Source: an uncultured Flavobacteriaceae bacterium (GTDB taxonomy: Bacteria > Bacteroidota > Bacteroidia > Flavobacteriales > Flavobacteriaceae). From it: a stretch of 32,185 nt of DNA. The position numbers and the translations under genes are program-made. The notes beneath the pieces are model-generated. The model was not told the origin of the DNA and ran no database searches. It saw only the letters and a list, made by a program, of their open reading frames with translations. The DNA is taken from assembly GCA_913043275.1 (NCBI GenBank), contig CAJWLL010000026.1:1-32185 (forward strand), in the 5' to 3' direction. This document shows positions 3,938 through 13,543 of the stretch, piece by piece; the stretch's first letter is position 1, and the number at the start of each line of letters is the position of its first letter.

Positions 3938-6220
3938 TTATTTAATCACAACAGATTTGCCTGAATAACTTCCTTGAGGTAAATTTATTGTAATTTCTGA
4001 GAGGCCCTCTTCAGAAATCCATCTGGAATCAAAACTCTCCCCACCTTTTTCAAACTTTTTAGATACCTTAAGAAGAAGTAAGCTTAATTCCCTGTTAGGA
4101 TCACTAATAGTAATACTATCAATCTGTTCATTTTGATTCATTTTTATCATCAAAATACAGGGAGCGGTAGCTTGAATCTTAAAAGCCTCCCCTACAAGTA
4201 ACTGAGCTGCTTTATAAAAAACGGCTTGGATAAGGTTCAGGCTAGTATTATGAACCGCTTGTAAATAAGGAGTATTAGATAGTATTTCTATAGGATTAAG
4301 TTCTTGCTTATTTTTCAATTCAAGTAAATCAGTATTTGGTCTTACGATGTATTCATAGGTCTCATTATCAGGTGACTCACCATGATTGATCCAAGCTTTA
4401 AACACATCTTTAACGATGATTTCTTTAGAAGAATCTATCTGCTTACTGATTCTCCACCAAGAACCTTTTTCTAAATCATTCATTACAGAAACATCTTGAG
4501 GTTTGGGTAAAAAGTAAGCGATTTTATCGTGGTGAATCCAATCAACATCCTGATACATTTGTGTCCCCCTATCGAGTTTTCGATGCTTGCCTTTAGATGA
4601 AATACTAACCTTTCCGTTAAGTAGGCATTGGTTTAAAGTGGTGTTTACCTCATTTTTGGATTTCGAAGAAATACCTGAACCTAAACAAACGTATTGCTCG
4701 TCGAAGAAAAACCATGCTTTTCTGGCCACCAATGGATCGTGAATGCTTTTAAAATCAAACCCTACTACACCATAGTGTCCATCAGTGGTAGCACCGACAA
4801 AATCGGTCAATCCCAATTTCTTGATTTGATTGTGATGCGGCAATTCTTTTTTTTGAACTACAGTCGTTCCGGTAATTCTTTGATAATCCAAAACTGGAGA
4901 AATATCGTCATATTCATTACCTTGGATGTAAATATGATTGGCTCCGTCTCCCCTGTGGTGGTTTAACAATCCCTGACTGTTATAAGGACTTTCCATATTC
5001 ATATTTCGCGAGGAATAAAGCCTGACAGAGGAATAAAAATCAGGTCTTTGAAAAGCAAAATGCTCACTGTTCCAATAGAAAGTGGCGTGTGAAATTGGGG
5101 ATTCTAAGGCTTCACCAGATCTCAATCCAATGATTTCGTTCATTTCCTCATTCCTGTAATCGGTAAGTGCAATAATTTTATGAGGTATTTCATTATCAAA
5201 GGCTTTTGTAGTTCCAGGTCTGGATATACTCCTGTTTTTGGCCCCATAGTCAGGTTTGACACCATAAACTGAATTTTTACAAATACCGTCCAAATAATAG
5301 TCAACCAAAATTTTTGTTTTTTCTGTCGAAAAGGCATATTCGGTATTTCTTACATGGTATGCCCATTCAACAAATGCCATTGCCCAACCAAGACCATAAG
5401 ACAGTATATTGTTGACTCCATCAGTTCTATGGTGAAAACTGTAGTCGTATTTCAATCCCCTTCCATTGGCTTTTAAAAACTCGTTAAAACCTCCTGTATC
5501 GGATTTAGAAAAGGTATAACCAAATTCTCCTCCAATCCAGTCTACAAACTTGATTTCATTTTCGATAATTTTTATAATGAATTCAAATTGAGTTTGATGG
5601 CCCAAAAAAAGTTGGTTTTTGGCAGCAATAGAACATACTTTGATTCGATCGCCCCCAGGCCGTGAGCCACCTTTGTTGATGTTGGCTCGATTTATGATCT
5701 CTTGAGATTTTGTTATCAACTCTTGAGGGATCTCCTCCCCAATAACCAGCATCAATTCGACCATACTGCGCGGTGTCCCAATTTGATTATTCCACCAATT
5801 ATCCCCAAAAAAATCATTCTCACACCAAAACTTCAAGGCATCTATGATTTTTTTGCATAGGTTTTTGTCCAAATGATATTTTGAAGCCGAAGATTTATAA
5901 GCAACTGCCATTCTGACAAGATTACTGAGGTGAATTCTATTGTCAAATCCTTCTCTAGATACATCGCTATAGTTAATATAGGGCCACTTTTCTCCGTCAA
6001 AATCAGAAAGAATCGTTTTGATTGTCTGGTCAAAATCTTCTGATGTAGCGTTTGAAGAAGTGCTCAAATGGTCATTGATGATGCTGTGATATATCCTAGA
6101 CTTTATAATCTCTATGCTATTTTCTTGAGCATTTAAATTTATTAAAACAAGAAGAAAGAGCAGTATGGTCAATTTTACATGCCAACAACAGTCAAAATGT
6201 ATTTCCTTTAATATCTTCAT
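3938..6220 (-). CDS. Polysaccharide lyase family 8 (chondroitin/hyaluronan-type lyase)
   Basis: This is a secreted or periplasmic lyase of 760 aa. Family 8 enzymes cleave uronic-acid polysaccharides such as chondroitin, hyaluronan or xanthan by beta-elimination. A signal peptide covers residues 1-31 (hydrophobic core LTILLFLLVLINLNA, probable cut before QEN). The alpha-toroid carries NWWNNQIGTPR at 141-151 and the catalytic His/Tyr block with H263/H264 and Y275. These are followed by KNRSISRPG (probable catalytic Arg) and NHHRGDGAN in the super-sandwich domain, and a short C-terminal domain ends in GKSVVIK. There is no type IX secretion C-terminal domain, so it is more likely periplasmic. It lies 41 bases after the cytochrome gene, in the same direction. 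The exact polysaccharide is uncertain; a chondroitin AC-like substrate is my best guess. Confidence 0.9.
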   Translation of the reverse strand: MKILKEIHFDCCWHVKLTILLFLLVLINLNAQENSIEIIKSRIYHSIINDHLSTSSNATSEDFDQTIKTILSDFDGEKWPYINYSDVSREGFDNRIHLSNLVRMAVAYKSSASKYHLDKNLCKKIIDALKFWCENDFFGDNWWNNQIGTPRSMVELMLVIGEEIPQELITKSQEIINRANINKGGSRPGGDRIKVCSIAAKNQLFLGHQTQFEFIIKIIENEIKFVDWIGGEFGYTFSKSDTGGFNEFLKANGRGLKYDYSFHHRTDGVNNILSYGLGWAMAFVEWAYHVRNTEYAFSTEKTKILVDYYLDGICKNSVYGVKPDYGAKNRSISRPGTTKAFDNEIPHKIIALTDYRNEEMNEIIGLRSGEALESPISHATFYWNSEHFAFQRPDFYSSVRLYSSRNMNMESPYNSQGLLNHHRGDGANHIYIQGNEYDDISPVLDYQRITGTTVVQKKELPHHNQIKKLGLTDFVGATTDGHYGVVGFDFKSIHDPLVARKAWFFFDEQYVCLGSGISSKSKNEVNTTLNQCLLNGKVSISSKGKHRKLDRGTQMYQDVDWIHHDKIAYFLPKPQDVSVMNDLEKGSWWRISKQIDSSKEIIVKDVFKAWINHGESPDNETYEYIVRPNTDLLELKNKQELNPIEILSNTPYLQAVHNTSLNLIQAVFYKAAQLLVGEAFKIQATAPCILMIKMNQNEQIDSITISDPNRELSLLLLKVSKKFEKGGESFDSRWISEEGLSEITINLPQGSYSGKSVVIK

Positions 6221-6261
6221 TTATTTTTGAGAATAGATATGAATATTTATGGGTTATGGAC

Positions 6262-8358
6262 TTACCAAAAAATCAATTCATCGATAAATATCCAAGAATT
6301 CTTTTTTTTCCATTTTTTATAGACCGGAGCATCAGGAAATTTCATGTGGTTTATCGCCCGTATCTTTACATCATTGTATCCCTTTAAGTCAACGGCTAGC
6401 GTAAAGTCCTTAAAATAAGATATTCTTTCGTCGGGTTCATGTTGGACCGGTATAGACAAATTATTGAGTAATTCGTATTTTCCAATTGGTGATTTACCGT
6501 AAACCTCAATTTTTTTTGGATAAACAGTACTCATGTCCAGATTTTCCAGCATACTCAAAGTGACATAATTGATTTTTTCAGCTTCCTTGAGTTTTACCTC
6601 AATTTCTAAATCCTCTTTCTTTACTCCCAGCCACGTTTTGGCATCTTCAATACTGGTTCCCCTATAAACCCTTTCCCCTTTTTTCCCGTCAAATATAACC
6701 GCCTGATTGTTATTAAAAGTAAAATTGACATGATGACTGATGGAAAATTCATTATCCAAGTTGTTATTAACCTTATGGTCGGTAATATGATTGTTGTTTT
6801 TAAAAATCATTTGTTCAAACAGATCACTGTCTTTCCAGCCAACTTTAATCGACTTTGCCCTTAACATTTTGGAATCAATCAACTTAATAGGGTCGTCATA
6901 AACAGGGGCACTTTCGTCAGGCTCACTTCCATCCAAAGTATAGTGGATGTTGATATTTTTAACCTGTGGTTCCTCAAATACGATACTGATAGTATCACTA
7001 AAGATGACATTCTTATTTAGGATATAAGGGGGACTAAGGCTCAACTTCTCCGAAAATAAATCCGAGGTACCAAAATGAATCAATGAGGGAGTTATGGAAG
7101 CCAATTGTTTTTCTTGATTTCTGTCAATTGCAGTATTCCATGCATAAATAGTTTTTGGAGGATTCAGTTGAAGCAAGTTTTGCACCCCTTGATGTGTTAC
7201 CCTGGTGTTGCAGAGGTTTAATACTTCCAAGGCTAATTTTTCCAGGGAATTCAATGCATCATCACTGATTTTGGTTTGATCTAATCGCAAAACTTTAAGG
7301 CGCGTAAATTCCCTTAAAACAAAAGCCATTTCATCATCAAAATTGGTATTGCTCAGATCCAATTCGAGTAGTTGATTTTTGACCTTAACCAACGTTTTCA
7401 AATGCTCCCCAGTCAATTGAGGCTTCATGAACTTTACCTTCAGGAGATTGTCGTTCAAGGCGTTGGGTTTGATTCTAAAACCTGTGGCCAACAGCTTTGC
7501 CAAATCGCTTCCTCCGGCTGCTTTCACCTGTTCATCTAACCCCCAAAAGGCCATTACATTGGCCTTTAAGGAATCCTTATCGGCCCAACCCATTGCCCCC
7601 TCTTTAAGATATGCTCCAGATGTCGCCCAGTGGGTCAAAAGCCATTTTTCTTTTTCGGTCAGTTGGGACTTGTTTTTAGGAGGCATGTGCAAGTCGTCTT
7701 CCATGGGCAGACTTATATATTTGACCAAACGTCCTTCTTGAGGATTTTGCGGATCGAACAGACTTCCACTTTCTCCTCCTTTCAAAACCAAATCATAGCG
7801 ATCCAAACGCAATTCATTTTTGCTTTTGTTGGCATTATGACAACTGATGCATTTGTCTTCAAAAATCACGTGAACCACCTCTTTGTAATAATCGACACTG
7901 TCTTTTTGTACTACTAATTTGATATCTTCAAATAAATTGGCTGTAGAGAGATAATCCTCCCCATGAGTGATTTGTCCCCCTTTATGTCCCGCAACCATTA
8001 ATGCGATTAAGGTCAATATATATGAACCAAAGAAAAGGGTTTCTTTGCCCTTCATTCGATGTAAAAAACACAAACTGAAACTCATTATTAAAGTTACGAT
8101 ACCCGCCCAAAAATGGAATTTAAGGGTGTTAAAATCATAAGCTTCGTCCAAAGAAAGCAAATAACCCAATAGACTGGCCATGAATGCTCCGGCAAAAGAA
8201 AAGTCAACGCCTATACGAATGGCCTTTTCAAGAGTCACCTTTTGAAGCTTTGAAATGAGCACCAACAAAAAAGTCATCAATAAAGACCCTATGGGCAGGT
8301 GAAGCACCAAAGGGTGAAATTTACCTATATATTTTAATATTTCTAAACTATAATCCAC
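6262..8358 (-). CDS. Membrane cytochrome c with DUF2231-like, LRR and chitobiase-like domains
   Basis: This is a 698-aa mosaic protein. Four membrane helices lie within residues 15-125 and resemble a DUF2231 domain (FHPLVLHLPIG), with histidines at 15, 20, 82, 125 and 132. A planctomycete-type cytochrome c domain follows, with heme site CISCH at 170-174 and a probable axial Met in HMPPK (M225). Next come leucine-rich repeats (about 330-410, LLELDLSNTNF), and a chitobiase/FN3-like domain (YTLDGSEPDESAPVY, about 473-487). A C-terminal discoidin-like beta domain ends in FIDELIFW. The start is GTG, four bases after the DUF1501 stop. The large C-terminal part probably faces the periplasm. Function is unknown; the context suggests electron transfer coupled to work on a carbohydrate or glycoconjugate. 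Confidence 0.8.
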   Translation of the reverse strand: MDYSLEILKYIGKFHPLVLHLPIGSLLMTFLLVLISKLQKVTLEKAIRIGVDFSFAGAFMASLLGYLLSLDEAYDFNTLKFHFWAGIVTLIMSFSLCFLHRMKGKETLFFGSYILTLIALMVAGHKGGQITHGEDYLSTANLFEDIKLVVQKDSVDYYKEVVHVIFEDKCISCHNANKSKNELRLDRYDLVLKGGESGSLFDPQNPQEGRLVKYISLPMEDDLHMPPKNKSQLTEKEKWLLTHWATSGAYLKEGAMGWADKDSLKANVMAFWGLDEQVKAAGGSDLAKLLATGFRIKPNALNDNLLKVKFMKPQLTGEHLKTLVKVKNQLLELDLSNTNFDDEMAFVLREFTRLKVLRLDQTKISDDALNSLEKLALEVLNLCNTRVTHQGVQNLLQLNPPKTIYAWNTAIDRNQEKQLASITPSLIHFGTSDLFSEKLSLSPPYILNKNVIFSDTISIVFEEPQVKNINIHYTLDGSEPDESAPVYDDPIKLIDSKMLRAKSIKVGWKDSDLFEQMIFKNNNHITDHKVNNNLDNEFSISHHVNFTFNNNQAVIFDGKKGERVYRGTSIEDAKTWLGVKKEDLEIEVKLKEAEKINYVTLSMLENLDMSTVYPKKIEVYGKSPIGKYELLNNLSIPVQHEPDERISYFKDFTLAVDLKGYNDVKIRAINHMKFPDAPVYKKWKKKNSWIFIDELIFW

Positions 8359-8362
8359 CAGG

Positions 8363-9832
8363 TCAACTTGATAGTATATCTCTTTTCACTTCACCTGAAA
8401 CGTCAGTTAGTCTGAACCTCCTACCTTGGGTTTTATAAATCATTTTTTCATGATCAACACCAAACTGATGGAGTAAGGTTGCTTGCAAGTCATGGACATG
8501 CATGGGGTCTTTGACAATGTTATATCCAAAGTCATCAGTCTCTCCATAACTGAATCCGGGTTTGATTCCCCCTCCTGCCATAAAAATGGTGAAGGATCTT
8601 GGGTGATGATCTCTGCCATAGTCATTGTCGGTAAGTCTCCCCTGACAGTAGTTTGTTCGGCCAAATTCTCCACCCCAAATCACCAAGGTGTCTTCCAACA
8701 GCCCTCTTTGTTTAAGGTCCATTATTAAGGCAGCTGTTCCTTGATCCACATCCTCTGACTGACGTTTGATTTGCGCAGGGAGATTGTCGTGTTGATCCCA
8801 GCCCGTATGGTACAACTGAACAAAACGTACATCCTTTTCTATCAAGCGACGGGCCAAAAGACAATTTGCGGCATATGTGCCAGGTTGATAAGAGTTTTTG
8901 CCATACATCCGCAAAATATGATCCGGTTCGTCACTAATATCCATTACATCAGGGACTGAGGTTTGCATTCTATAAGCCATCTCGTAATTTGAAATGCGAC
9001 TGTTAATTTCGGGATCACCAAATGTTTTTTCTTGCGATTCATTGAGAACGGCCAAATGATCCAACATGTTTCTTCTTTCGCTTTTGGAAACTCCTTCAGG
9101 ATTTTGCAGATACAAAACAGGATCTTTACCAGAACGGAATTGTACTCCCTGATGCAGTGAACTTAAAAAACCATTGCCCCACAAACGTGAATACAAGGGT
9201 TGGGGTTGAGGCTTGCCATTACCAGTAGAAAGTAAAACGATAAAGGAAGGCAAATTGTCATTTAGACTCCCTAAACCATAGCTCATCCACGAACCTATAC
9301 TTGGCCGACCTGGCAATTGGGAACCAGTTTGAAAAAAAGTAATTGCTGGGTCATGATTAATCGCCTCAGTATGCATCGATTTTACAAAACACAACTCGTC
9401 CACAACTTTAGAGACATGCGGCATCAAATCACTCACCCAAGCGCGAGATTCCCCATATTGCTTAAAATTATAAAGACTTCCTGTGACGGGAAATTTGTCT
9501 TGACTAGCAGTCATACCAGTTAATCTTTGCCCTTTCCTAATCGAATCGGGTAAATCCATTCCCCGGTATTTGTTTAGATAAGGCTTAAAATCAAACAAAT
9601 CCAATTGTGAGGGTCCTCCACTTTGAAAAAGATAAATCACCCTTTTGGCCTTGGGTGCAAAATGAGGTAGAGGTAATGGACCAGCTTGTAATTGAGGACC
9701 CAAAGAATCAGGAGAAGTCATGTTAAACGGATCGAGCAAACTTCCCAAAGCTAAACCGCCAATACCAAATCCCATATTTTTTAGAAAATGGCGACGGTTG
9801 TTGTTTTGAAAATATTTTTTTAATTCTTGCAT
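8363..9832 (-). CDS. DUF1501 family protein with Tat signal
   Basis: This is a 489-aa member of DUF1501, a family related to the sulfatase/alkaline-phosphatase fold and of unproven activity. The N-terminus has a twin-arginine export signal NRRHFLK at residues 12-18, followed by a hydrophobic Gly-rich segment. It is therefore probably exported folded and may carry a metal. Family blocks include FQSGGPSQLDLFDFKP, EAINHDPAITFFQTGS, SIGSWMSYGLGS, LYHTGWDQHDNLP, WGGEFGRT and GRDHHPRSFTIFMAGGG, rich in the His and Asp expected of metal ligands. It starts 3 bases after the DUF1553 gene and ends 4 bases before the cytochrome gene, so the three are tightly coupled. DUF1501 is regularly encoded next to PSCyt1/DUF1549/DUF1553 proteins. 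Confidence 0.88.
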   Translation of the reverse strand: MQELKKYFQNNNRRHFLKNMGFGIGGLALGSLLDPFNMTSPDSLGPQLQAGPLPLPHFAPKAKRVIYLFQSGGPSQLDLFDFKPYLNKYRGMDLPDSIRKGQRLTGMTASQDKFPVTGSLYNFKQYGESRAWVSDLMPHVSKVVDELCFVKSMHTEAINHDPAITFFQTGSQLPGRPSIGSWMSYGLGSLNDNLPSFIVLLSTGNGKPQPQPLYSRLWGNGFLSSLHQGVQFRSGKDPVLYLQNPEGVSKSERRNMLDHLAVLNESQEKTFGDPEINSRISNYEMAYRMQTSVPDVMDISDEPDHILRMYGKNSYQPGTYAANCLLARRLIEKDVRFVQLYHTGWDQHDNLPAQIKRQSEDVDQGTAALIMDLKQRGLLEDTLVIWGGEFGRTNYCQGRLTDNDYGRDHHPRSFTIFMAGGGIKPGFSYGETDDFGYNIVKDPMHVHDLQATLLHQFGVDHEKMIYKTQGRRFRLTDVSGEVKRDILSS

Positions 9833-9835
9833 TAG

Positions 9836-12163
9836 CTAGCTTTTTTGAGAGGTTTCATCTAAATTATAAATTAAATGAGCTAGAGAAATATAGCTTTTCA
9901 TTTCTAAATCAATTTTACTCATTTCGGCTGTTTTTTCTGCGTAGATCTCCCATACTGTATCCCGATAATCGATCATTTCGGACAAGGCCTTTCGGCTAGG
10001 TTTTCGCCCAGTAATTCGCCTATGAAGGGCAACAATTCTATCTTTATCTCTTTTAATTTCACTTTTGAGGATCAATGAGGCAATGGCCTCAGCTGCATTT
10101 TGAACCTGTGGATCATTCAAGAGAATCAGAGATTGCAAAGGTGTACTAGTTTTCTGACGCTCTACAGTGCAGTAATCTCTAGTGGAAGCGTCGAAAGTAA
10201 TCATACCTGGAGGAGGGACAGTTCTTTTCCAGTATGTATAAAGGCTTCTACGGTATTGATTTCCATTGATCGATACAATATAGCGCTTAAGGGAATTGGA
10301 TGTACTCCCTCCGGTCATTTCATCCCATAAACCTGGTGGCTGATAGGGTTTAACACTGGGACCACCTATTCGGTCCACAAACAAACCACTACTTACCAAT
10401 ACATTGTCTCTTATCATTTCCGCTGTAAGCTTTTGTCTTGGAAAAACAGACAAATATTGGTTTTTAGGATCAATACTCAACTGTAAAGCATTAGGTTTAC
10501 TAGATTTTTGATAGGTTGAGGACATGACTATTCTTTTGATCATCTTTTTAGTATCCCAGCCCTCTTCCATAAAAGTCACCGCCAACCAATCCAATAATTC
10601 TGGATGGGTAGGTAATGACCCTTGATTTCCAAAATCAGAGGGTGTGGCTACAATACCCATGCCAAAAAATTGTTGCCACAGATTATTCACCGCTACCCTC
10701 GATGTTAAAGGATTTTTAGGATCAAAAAGCCATTTTGAAAGCCCTAATCGATTCTTAGGGAAATGAGCTTCAAAGTTCAAGATATTGCTTGGCATTCCCC
10801 CTTCAACTTTATGCTCTGTAGGAGAGTCATAGGCTCCACGATTCAGAATGTAGGTATTTCGTAAACTCTCTACCTCTTCCATGACCATTACCTCCAACTC
10901 TGGTATGCTGTCTGGCATTTTGATAAAAGAAAGTTCTTCTTTTACTGTACTTTGATCAAGTTTCAAGTTTGGTCTAGGTGCTTTATTTTCGTAGGAAATT
11001 CTACCTTCTTCGTCAATTCGGTTGAAAAAGTCAAATAAATTAAAAAAATCTTTTTGGGTGAGCTCATCGTATTTGTGGTCATGACAACGCGCACATTCCA
11101 TTGTTAATCCCATCAATGATTTGGCTGTAGTTACGACACGATCCGCAACATACTCAACACGGTATTCCTCCTCAATTACACCCCCTTCTTGGGTTATCAT
11201 ATGATTGCGGTTAAATCCTGTGGCTAATATTTGTTCTTTGGTTGCAGTAGGTATCAAATCACCCGCTAGTTGCCAGGTAATAAATTTATCATAGGGAAGA
11301 TTTTTATTATATGCATGAATCACCCAATCACGCCATGGCCACATTGTTCGTTCAGTATCATCTTGATATCCATTCGTGTCTGCATATCGTGAGATATCCA
11401 TCCATATTGATGCCATACGCTCTCCATAGGAAGGAGATTGCAGTAAACGATCCACTACCTTTTCATATGCATCATCAGAAAAGTCATTAAGAAAATTATC
11501 AATTTCACTAATTGAGGGTGGAAGCCCTATAAGATCAAAATACAAGCGTCGAAGCAGCATCTCTTTGGGTGCTTTAGCCGATGGCTTTAATCCTTTTTTA
11601 AACATTTGATTGGCAATAAAACGGTCAATTGTATCGGTGCTCGAAATGTCAAAATTATTTGCTATGGGATTACTTTTTACAGGAGGATTATATGCCCAGT
11701 GAGTATCCCATTCAGCACCCTGTTCAATCCACCTTTCAATGATTATTTTCTCTCTTTCGGTCAAAACTAAATTAGATTCTGGTGGAGGCATCTGGTGAGA
11801 AGCTCGAGTTGAACGAATGCGATTAACCAACTCACTCTTATTCGTATAACCAGGAAAAATAATCTGTTTACTGTTATCTTCTATACTTGGTCTGTACCAG
11901 TTATCCTTAATATCCAGCCTAAACTCACCCCGAACAGATTTGGGATCAGGGCCATGACATGTGTAACATTTGTCAGAAAGAATCGGTTTAACATCAAAAT
12001 TATAGCTGATTTCTTCAGGTACAGGGCCATTGATGTTATCTCGATCCACAATATAACTGAGAAGAACCGTTTTACTTTCGGGTTCATCTTTAAAGAAATA
12101 CTTAACACCAAAAGCAAAAACAAAGGCACCTATAAAAAACAATTGAGGTGTAAATTTTTTCAA
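9836..12163 (-). CDS. PSCyt1-DUF1549-DUF1553 protein (planctomycete-type cytochrome c)
   Basis: This is a 775-aa exported protein with an N-terminal hydrophobic segment at about residues 6-24. The PSCyt1 cytochrome c domain has CYTCH at 66-70 and a probable Met ligand in HQMPPP. DUF1549 (about 175-385) contains DLIGLPPS, GERMASIWMD and a second CxxCH at 355-359 (CARCHDHKYD). DUF1553 follows (about 465-740; NPLTSRVAVNNLW, THPELLDWLA, RRSLYTYWKR, TPLQSLILLNDP). The linker between the two DUFs is shorter than in many planctomycete members. The start codon is TTG, forced because an in-frame stop lies six codons upstream and the next ATG comes after the first heme motif. It is the first gene of the accessory operon. 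The family is certain; enzymatic activity is not established. Confidence 0.88.
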   Translation of the reverse strand: MKKFTPQLFFIGAFVFAFGVKYFFKDEPESKTVLLSYIVDRDNINGPVPEEISYNFDVKPILSDKCYTCHGPDPKSVRGEFRLDIKDNWYRPSIEDNSKQIIFPGYTNKSELVNRIRSTRASHQMPPPESNLVLTEREKIIIERWIEQGAEWDTHWAYNPPVKSNPIANNFDISSTDTIDRFIANQMFKKGLKPSAKAPKEMLLRRLYFDLIGLPPSISEIDNFLNDFSDDAYEKVVDRLLQSPSYGERMASIWMDISRYADTNGYQDDTERTMWPWRDWVIHAYNKNLPYDKFITWQLAGDLIPTATKEQILATGFNRNHMITQEGGVIEEEYRVEYVADRVVTTAKSLMGLTMECARCHDHKYDELTQKDFFNLFDFFNRIDEEGRISYENKAPRPNLKLDQSTVKEELSFIKMPDSIPELEVMVMEEVESLRNTYILNRGAYDSPTEHKVEGGMPSNILNFEAHFPKNRLGLSKWLFDPKNPLTSRVAVNNLWQQFFGMGIVATPSDFGNQGSLPTHPELLDWLAVTFMEEGWDTKKMIKRIVMSSTYQKSSKPNALQLSIDPKNQYLSVFPRQKLTAEMIRDNVLVSSGLFVDRIGGPSVKPYQPPGLWDEMTGGSTSNSLKRYIVSINGNQYRRSLYTYWKRTVPPPGMITFDASTRDYCTVERQKTSTPLQSLILLNDPQVQNAAEAIASLILKSEIKRDKDRIVALHRRITGRKPSRKALSEMIDYRDTVWEIYAEKTAEMSKIDLEMKSYISLAHLIYNLDETSQKS

Positions 12164-12265: not shown

Positions 12266-13543
12266 TTAGTTTGCGAAGAGAGGTCGGCCTTCCATCAATT
12301 GATTGACTTCTTTTGCTACAGCTTCAATGCTTTTCTCATCCTCAGGATTGGAAATCACCCGATCAATTAAGTTCACTATGGTCTCCATATCCGCTTCTTT
12401 TAGTCCACGAGTGGTAACTGCAGCCGATCCAAATCGAATTCCAGAGGTCACAAAGGGGGATTTATCATCAAAAGGAACCATATTTTTGTTGGCAGTAATA
12501 TCCGCCTTAACCAAAGCCTGCTCAGCTGCTTTTCCAGTAATGTCCTTGTTTCGCAAATCAATCAACATCATATGATTGTCTGTTCCTCCAGAGATCAAGT
12601 TATAACCTATTTTTAAGAAAGCCTCTGCCATGGTGCTCGCATTTTTCCTTACCTGTAACATATAATCTTTAAAGCCAGGGGTCAAAGCCTCACCAAAAGC
12701 AATTGCTTTGGCGGCCACTACATGCTCCAAGGGTCCTCCTTGGTTGCCAGGAAAAACAGCCATGTCCAACAAATAGGACATCTTTCTTAAAATGCCATTT
12801 TTTAGCGCAATGCCGAATGGATTATCAAAATCCTCACCCATCAAAATAAGTCCTCCTCTAGGACCTCTTAGTGTCTTGTGAGTTGTAGTGGTCACTACGT
12901 GACAATAAGGAATTGGATTGGAAAGCAATCCAGTAGCAATCATGCCAGATGGATGCGAAATATCGGCCAATAAAAAAGCGCCTACTTGATCTGCAATAGC
13001 CCGAAACCTTTTAAAATCAATATCTCGTGAATATGCCGAAGCCCCTGCAATAATCATTTGTGGTTGCACTTTCTTGGCGATGGCCAAAATATTGTCGTAA
13101 TCCAATATTCCTGTATCTTTTTGAACACCGTAAAAGTGGGCTTTGTATAAGCGTCCAGAGAAATTAACTGGAGAACCGTGGGTTAAATGTCCGCCGTGAG
13201 ATAAGTCAAACCCTAATATTCTATTACCCGGTTTTAAAAAAGCATGAAATACCGCCGTATTGGCTTGAGAGCCAGAATGCGGCTGTACGTTGGCATAGGT
13301 TGCACCAAACAATTCCTTGGCGCGATCTATAGCAATTTGTTCTATTTGATCCACAACCTCACATCCACCATAGTAACGTTTACCGGGATAGCCCTCTGCA
13401 TATTTATTAGTCAATACAGATCCCGTAGCCTCCATTACGGCAGGACTGGTAAAGTTTTCAGAAGCAATCAATTCAATACCATTCAACTGGCGTTGATTTT
13501 CTGAATTAATCAAATCAAAAATAGTATTGTCTCGTGCTCTCAT
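12266..13543 (-). CDS. glyA: Serine hydroxymethyltransferase
   Basis: This PLP enzyme interconverts serine and glycine and charges tetrahydrofolate with a one-carbon unit. Diagnostic features are LIASENF near residue 25, the block [18 protein letters not shown], the HGGHLTHG loop, and the PLP-binding lysine K223 in [14 protein letters not shown]. The length of 425 aa is normal. The ATG gives the expected N-terminus, and a TATTTTTG box lies 22 bases upstream. It is divergent from the NAD(P)HX repair gene. Confidence 0.97.

Follow-up and report, generated by a model that had tools for sequence, protein, structure and literature searches.

A PSCyt module of Bacteroidota with a DUF2231-type membrane cytochrome and a slowly evolving DUF1501 protein, adjoined by a family 8 polysaccharide lyase in part of one genus

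The window analyzed in this study is a DNA stretch of 32,185 nucleotides that makes up the whole of contig C26 (CAJWLL010000026.1, assembly GCA_913043275.1) in the 2.0-Mb genome (G000, completeness 88%) of an uncultured Flavobacteriaceae bacterium. Four consecutive genes on the minus strand of this contig encode a protein composed of PSCyt1, DUF1549 (PSCyt2) and DUF1553 (PSD1) domains, a DUF1501 protein, a membrane cytochrome, and a lyase with the fold of polysaccharide lyase family 8 (PL8). We find that the first three genes, hereafter the triad, are a stand-alone module and represent one copy of a PSCyt module of Bacteroidota. Sequence comparison suggests, with a probability that we put at roughly 60%, that the triad forms an autonomous periplasmic redox module anchored in the inner membrane, and that the PL8 protein is a separate lyase that became attached to it in part of one genus. 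This reading builds on direct observations of the composition and conservation of the module, of its synteny within the genus, and of the lability of its link to PL8. The main interest lies in the conserved module, above all in its membrane cytochrome and in the DUF1501 protein with its unusually low rate of evolution.

The operon begins with the PSCyt1-DUF1549-DUF1553 protein (775 amino acids, positions 9836..12163), followed by the DUF1501 protein (489 amino acids, 8363..9832) with a twin-arginine N-terminus, the membrane cytochrome (698 amino acids, 6262..8358) and the PL8-fold lyase (760 amino acids, 3938..6220). The intergenic gaps measure 3, 4 and 41 bases. All domains of the first protein, the DUF1501 domain, and the Lyase_8_N, Lyase_8 and Lyase_8_C domains of the lyase score above their Pfam cut-offs. 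The same is true for the PSCyt1 heme c domain and the Fn3_assoc/CHB_HEX_C_1 region of the third protein, which also contains a DUF2231-type domain. The lyase has a signal-peptide-like N-terminus, and a hydrophobic N-terminus on the DUF1549/1553 protein was seen by eye, although a crude scan did not call it. The open reading frame (ORF) coordinates and Pfam domains agree with the original prediction of four closely spaced genes on one strand. Its three c-type heme sites are recovered as CxxCH motifs, of which the first protein has two and the third protein has one, and its description of an exported or membrane-bound multi-heme c-type module with DUF1501 is supported. The third protein had been described as a cytochrome c/leucine-rich repeat/chitobiase-like protein: the cytochrome and chitobiase-like parts stand (PSCyt1 and CHB), but Pfam called no leucine-rich repeat in the window copy at E ≤ 0.05. 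Such repeats were called in relatives (LRR_8 at 2e-7 in L045; LRR_4 at 0.011 in L034 and L066). As had also been predicted, neither SusC/D nor a sulfatase was found among the 27 of 32 window ORFs of at least 100 amino acids that were scanned (the other five sit inside longer ORFs), which speaks against a Sus-type polysaccharide utilization locus. Genes for cytochrome c assembly and for TatC are present in the genome.

A survey of 299 genomes of the family returned DUF1501 matches of any strength in 181 genomes. In 74 of these the match is strong (E ≤ 1e-100); the remaining 107 contain weaker types only and were left outside the sample that we describe here. This sample consists of 60 DUF1501 loci out of 56 genomes, all within the set with strong matches. 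The loci were taken from the best-scoring places, with three loci each from G020 and G249; the window locus and a locus with triad and PL8 on contig C10 of G249 (L025) are not among the 60. Families were labeled by phmmer against reference proteins, several of which were scanned with Pfam, while the references for SusC (L019), sialidase/esterase-like, xylose-isomerase-like (L009), SulfD (L007) and one Gfo/Idh protein (L007) were named by sight. The same-strand run that contains DUF1501 includes a DUF1553 protein in 59 of the 60 loci; 50 runs encode a PSCyt1 membrane protein and 14 a CHB protein. A protein with an NHL propeller is encoded in 39 runs and shows a twin-arginine pattern in 38 of these. 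None of these five families (DUF1501, DUF1553, PSCyt1 membrane protein, NHL, CHB) was found in 20 control stretches picked by hand from genomes of the same set. Within 18 kb, CRTAC-type proteins occur at 10/60 loci (0/20 controls), sulfatases at 9/60 (1/20), Gfo/Idh proteins at 7/60 (2/20), SusC at 5/60 (1/20), DUF1080 at 3/60 (1/20) and GMC proteins at 1/60 (1/20). Since the counts of module genes are steady and those of glycan-related neighbors vary, we conclude that the module is stable and that its glycan neighbors are not. The expectation that PL8 is a regular partner of the triad finds no support at this scale: PL8 is found at none of the 60 loci (1/61 if the separately taken L025 is included).

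The genus of the window genome was surveyed in 22 genomes, most of which are incomplete metagenome-assembled genomes (MAGs). The membrane cytochrome is present in 19 of them. Hence, the predicted "accessory" character of the operon holds for the family, given the strong DUF1501 matches in 74/299 genomes, but not for the genus. Of the 19 genomes, 13 have the triad next to the serine hydroxymethyltransferase (SHMT) gene glyA; in five the contig ends too early to show the neighbor, and in one (G304) the neighbor is a different one. In the window, glyA occupies positions 12266..13543 on the minus strand, and we treat this usual upstream neighbor as context outside the system. The triad of G304 (L116:816-11802), which has no PL8, adjoins a divergent SusC-like/SusD-like pair in place of glyA. 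PL8 orthologues occur in 16 of the 22 genomes. In eight of these (G000, G249, G300, G301, G305, G306, G307 and G309) the PL8 gene adjoins the membrane cytochrome gene, so the arrangement is not confined to the window genome; the contigs of G306 and G309 end within DUF1501 and leave DUF1553 out of view. The gap between the two genes is 31-51 bp in all eight genomes, which fits co-transcription. In seven further genomes PL8 lies elsewhere: a sulfatase gene follows directly in G020, G299, G303, G310, G312 and G317, and in G308 the gene sits on a short contig without triad or sulfatase. The contig of G302 ends at PL8. Ten genomes contain an intact membrane cytochrome gene without an adjacent PL8, and in G313, where no PL8 was found, the cytochrome gene is broken. 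Because sister species combine PL8 with a sulfatase or have no PL8 while holding the triad, we consider the module to be independent of PL8.

The putative heme sites of the two cytochromes are constant among relatives. Two CxxCH motifs are present in each of 60 DUF1553 proteins (from 59 loci), and conservation across 64 sequences places the hemes of the first protein at C66xxC69H70, together with an invariant M125, and at C357xxC360H361. The PSCyt1 membrane proteins that score above 100 bits contain one CxxCH each (51/51). In an alignment of 54 sequences, comprising these 51 proteins, the window copy and two further copies of the window genome, residues H15, H20, H82, H125, H132, C170xxC173H174 and M225 are invariant. 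In a hydropathy scan the five histidines lie at the ends of hydrophobic segments; we infer that they may be exposed on the periplasmic side, where they could bind heme b or a metal. The DUF2231 assignment comes from orthologues in G020, G307 and G317, which match PF09990 with 27.0-27.9 bits, above the cut-off of 26.4 bits; the window copy scores 16.3 and 20.3 bits, below this cut-off. The same genome encodes a second PSCyt system on contig C11 (L171:4656-11444), in which a sulfatase is followed by a fusion protein of 1208 amino acids with the order DUF2231-PSCyt1-PSD3-PSD5-PSD4-PSCyt3-PSD2 and then by DUF1552. An alignment of 15 rows shows, in every row, the five histidines, the CxxCH motif and the methionine of the window protein at matching positions in the fusion. 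Since DUF2231-PSCyt1 is a separate gene in one PSCyt system and part of a fusion in another, it appears to work together with PSCyt proteins. We tentatively propose, at clearly less than even odds, that DUF2231-PSCyt1 is an unrecognized inner-membrane b/c-type cytochrome, with a five-histidine site for heme b or another metal at the periplasmic face beside a Met-His heme c, and that it connects the quinone pool to PSCyt systems of two types, DUF1549/1553-DUF1501 and PSCyt3-DUF1552. If so, the PSCyt protein families would be respiratory enzymes. Our searches of the open-license PubMed Central (PMC) literature showed no report of DUF2231 as a cytochrome. The unit of five histidines and heme c, available as a gene and as a fusion, offers a concrete protein for redox testing.

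The DUF1501 protein is the second conserved component of interest. Its twin arginine (R13, R14) is conserved in 98% of 64 aligned DUF1501 sequences, and the corresponding pattern is present in 59 of the 60 sampled proteins. Evolutionary rates were computed for ten species pairs, and the following figures cover five of these. Of the four genes, DUF1501 evolves most slowly, with 91.8-95.3% identity and a nonsynonymous divergence (pN) of 0.030-0.056. This value is lower than that of SHMT in each of the five pairs (0.047-0.074), and PL8 reaches 0.141-0.225. Most pairs approach saturation in synonymous divergence (dS), and the comparison is restricted to pN for this reason. A profile built from 64 DUF1501 proteins (47 after filtering) was compared by hhalign with a profile of 21 sulfatases. 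The C-terminal 103 columns align with a probability of 90 and an E-value of 1.7e-6 for a single target. A search of the PDB with a single DUF1501 sequence returned one sulfatase at E 0.49. These matches hint that DUF1501 may belong to the alkaline-phosphatase superfamily; the likeness to sulfatases and this superfamily is limited to part of DUF1501, and no catalytic nucleophile was located. Because sister species pair PL8 with a sulfatase, we also considered that DUF1501 replaces a missing sulfatase, and rejected this idea as a main claim. An orthologous sulfatase (at least 860 bits) is encoded in 19 of the 22 genus genomes including the window genome, where it lies on contig C14 near PfkB, DHDPS, SSF, GH32 and GH39 genes. 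Furthermore, five of the six species that pair PL8 with a sulfatase carry the triad; the membrane cytochrome was not found in the sixth, G310. A distant DUF1501 gene on contig C1 of the window genome (L007:7533-10588) adjoins a DUF1800 gene. This locus shows a weak secretion-system C-terminal sorting domain, and its DUF1501 is probably a different, secreted type.

The mechanism that we infer for the triad is as follows. Electrons would pass between the DUF2231-PSCyt1 protein and either the quinone pool or a terminal cytochrome, the DUF1549/1553 protein would relay electrons between its own hemes and a putative substrate site, and DUF1501 would serve as a slowly evolving, metallohydrolase-like partner. 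PL8 would act as a separate, probably periplasmic uronate lyase that is encoded at the 3' end of the operon in part of the genus and is probably co-transcribed. Several observations weigh against this reading. The crude hydropathy scan gives anywhere from 3 to 8 segments among relatives of the membrane cytochrome, and the DUF2231 match is weak in the window copy. The sulfatase likeness of DUF1501 is partial, with a probability of 63 when a global alignment is forced. AlphaFold models of DUF1501 (6 sequences) and DUF1549/1553 (4 sequences) reach confidence scores (predicted local distance difference test, pLDDT) of 29 and 35; because both models are unusable, they lend no fold support to a redox or metallohydrolase function. 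The membrane cytochrome is missing from 10 of the 60 runs, and none above 100 bits is found in 9 of the 60 stretches, so that this component may not always be needed. At L064, the one run of the sample without DUF1553, the tested long ORFs before DUF1501 match no DUF1553 query. Finally, the steady spacing of 31-51 bp could also mean that selection keeps PL8 in its place. As to the structure of L064, three overlapping ORFs (1104, 1110 and 1122 amino acids) precede DUF1501 at L064:5225-8639, and neither of the plus-strand ORFs tested there matched DUF1553.

How did PL8 come to lie next to the triad? When adjacency to PL8 is mapped on a membrane cytochrome tree of 18 genomes from the genus plus one outgroup, it must have changed five times or more, and four well-supported sister pairs differ in it. 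Its distribution is not clustered beyond shuffling, since an equally low number of changes sufficed in 99 of 500 shuffles. The simplest reading of the tree would be one gain of adjacency followed by several losses. In the PL8 tree the triad-linked copies form one clade with one exception (L015). Together, these patterns make the tie between PL8 and triad look like a local, reversible arrangement in one genus and not a general rule. The same lability, as well as the occurrence of PL8 within the genus beside a sulfatase, apart from the triad, or not at all among the genes found, would fit an explanation by chance: the lyase gene landed downstream of the triad and uses the operon promoter, with no shared biochemistry or positional advantage. 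We regard this explanation as less likely than the main reading, because eight genomes keep the short spacing and because PL8 shows 64-76% protein identity with pN far below synonymous divergence (pS) in the pairs compared. These features argue that PL8 has long been intact and close to the triad.

A second alternative, which we find unlikely, concerns the source of the electrons. The module may take them from periplasmic sugar oxidation of the 3-keto-glycoside type, catalyzed by GMC or Gfo/Idh-type dehydrogenases, and pass them on to the respiratory chain. Some loci are indeed suggestive of such a function. For example, one single-strand run (L066:1557-13615) encodes Gfo/Idh, 3-keto-disaccharide hydrolase, GMC, gluconate-2-dehydrogenase subunit 3, DUF1553, DUF1501, NHL, CHB and PSCyt1 proteins in this order. 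Another triad of the window genome (L006) is followed by genes for a Gfo/Idh protein (GH109-type), a 3-keto-disaccharide hydrolase and a second Gfo/Idh protein, and L037 and L090 contain 3-keto-glycoside-type genes within 18 kb. In contrast to these examples, Gfo/Idh, DUF1080 and GMC proteins are not enriched over controls in the sample as a whole.

The original prediction had joined all four genes into a possible redox-linked pathway in the periplasm that processes a uronic-acid polysaccharide or its fragments. On this reading the lyase would make unsaturated fragments, which the cytochrome module would oxidize. The components are in place, an exported multi-heme module and a PL8-fold lyase in line on the same strand with short gaps, and this order recurs in the eight genomes of the genus; the link between them rests on gene position. 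Relatives from the PL8 subgroup occur in uronate-type loci elsewhere. One such locus (L019) encodes SusC/D, an Alginate_lyase-family protein and a heparinase II/III-family protein, and another (L031) is a SusC/D locus with GH88. In addition, a gene for a SulP-type sulfate permease follows PL8 in three genomes of the genus (L020:12489-14018, L132:1-420 and L133:1-755) and, judged by coordinates, a PL8 fragment on contig C24 of G307. We consider such a joint route unlikely, because PL8 is absent from the 60 sampled DUF1501 loci, because sister species have the triad without PL8 at the same place where this place is visible, and because the adjacency is labile on the tree and the evolutionary rates of the genes are very unequal.

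The lyase itself provides no clear indication of a glycosaminoglycan (GAG) substrate. PL8 enzymes follow a general acid/base catalytic scheme. The best solved relative of the window lyase is chondroitinase AC (PDB 1hm2/1cb8, presumably from Pedobacter (Flavobacterium) heparinus), which shares the PL8 architecture and matches with E-values of 4e-83 for the single sequence and 2e-123 for a profile. In the alignment to this enzyme Y275 corresponds to Tyr234, and R330 and R334 correspond to Arg288 and Arg292, so that the tyrosine and both arginines are retained. In contrast, D191 takes the position of Asn175 and R265 that of His225; around the latter position the window lyase reads His263-His264-Arg265, with two histidines before the arginine. 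Active-site roles of His225, Arg288, Arg292, Asn175 and Tyr234 are given in passages of PMC8733870. All 18 rows aligned from the subgroup, 17 of them distinct, share the motifs GDR and SFHHR: the asparagine of chondroitinase AC is lost, and arginine stands at the histidine position. Three other aligned PL8 proteins, including the second PL8 of the window genome, retain Asn and His. A shifted catalytic histidine in the subgroup is possible. The NCBIfam model for chondroitinase AC (NF043001) gives 349 bits, far from its equivalog cut-off of 1000. The match to PDB 7r2x is weaker, with a score far below that of chondroitinase AC; we take this structure to be the PL8 mannuronate lyase of the fungus Paradendryphiella salina, which acts on a non-GAG uronate polymer. 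Since catalytic positions are altered in the PL8 subgroup that includes the window lyase, GAG specificity is unsupported and the earlier label of this lyase as "glycosaminoglycan-type" is doubtful. More probably, this lyase has a different uronate specificity, and the subgroup with its rearranged active site is a target for finding new ones.

PSCyt proteins have been described before. He et al. (2017, PMC5615132) reported PSCyt/PSD domain combinations, conserved neighbors and proximity to sulfatases in Verrucomicrobia. According to passages of that paper, PSCyt2 and PSCyt3 genes each adjoin one family of uncharacterized genes; a role for PSCyt proteins on mono- or oligomers was suggested, and their function was stated to be wholly unknown in 2017. 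DUF1501 and DUF1552, which are mentioned three times each in that paper, are probably the two neighbor families. Since DUF1501 is counted there, the PSCyt-DUF1501 pairing is probably not new. The main text of the paper showed no occurrence of DUF2231 or of "polysaccharide lyase". Compared with the PSCyt sets of Verrucomicrobia and Planctomycetes, the window presents a Bacteroidota version whose third gene encodes the DUF2231-PSCyt1 membrane protein and to which some members of one genus add PL8 as a fourth gene. Our searches of the open-license PMC literature showed neither an experimental function for the DUF1549/1553-DUF1501 module nor a report of a triad-PL8 operon. PSCyt proteins can be numerous per genome, as illustrated by Rhodopirellula baltica with 41 copies each of DUF1553 and DUF1549 (PMC2754498). 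Telling the module's own genes apart from a local addition like PL8 removes a misleading clue to the substrate.

By analogy with Cbp2D of Cellvibrio japonicus, the module could also pass electrons in the outward direction, to an oxidative enzyme, as has been proposed for Cbp2D and lytic polysaccharide monooxygenases (LPMOs). Cbp2D with its CjX183 domain is likewise an exported c-type cytochrome with a PSD-type (DUF1587) domain that is connected to polysaccharide oxidation, and passages of PMC8981238 report that the isolated CjX183 domain activates LPMOs, which it can reduce; DUF1587 is also found among the PSD domains of the fused PSCyt protein in the window genome. However, Cbp2D has an LPMO as partner, and these passages mention neither DUF1549/1553 nor DUF1501 or DUF2231. 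Nothing speaks for an LPMO here, although LPMO families were not searched for, and the triad proteins look inner-membrane or periplasmic, which makes an outward transfer very unlikely.

The remaining observations concern the surroundings of PL8. A megablast search with the 8.2-kb operon against 72,556 plasmids returned no match, which excludes near-identical copies only. The closest PL8 relatives in named genomes come from Flavobacteriaceae and other Bacteroidota MAGs. Among ten relatives found by a PL8 search of genome contigs, a full triad precedes PL8 in L012, L018 and L020, and L013 and L014 show a partial triad, as much as the contig holds. At L015 no triad lies in the 640 bases upstream of PL8, and there is none at four more distant relatives. 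Outside the genus (L019, L021, L027-L031), the flanks examined contain no triad. The window genome encodes a second PL8 on contig C10 (L022:5075-13157), which has the usual Asn/His active site. Two sulfatase genes adjoin it, and a third lies close by on the opposite strand. For GAG degradation by this bacterium, the second PL8 is a more promising candidate than that of the operon. Copies from the family at 48-51% identity comprise the one in the SusC/D locus L031 and four solitary genes (L027-L030), three of which lie just upstream of the same gene, presumably a radA-like one.

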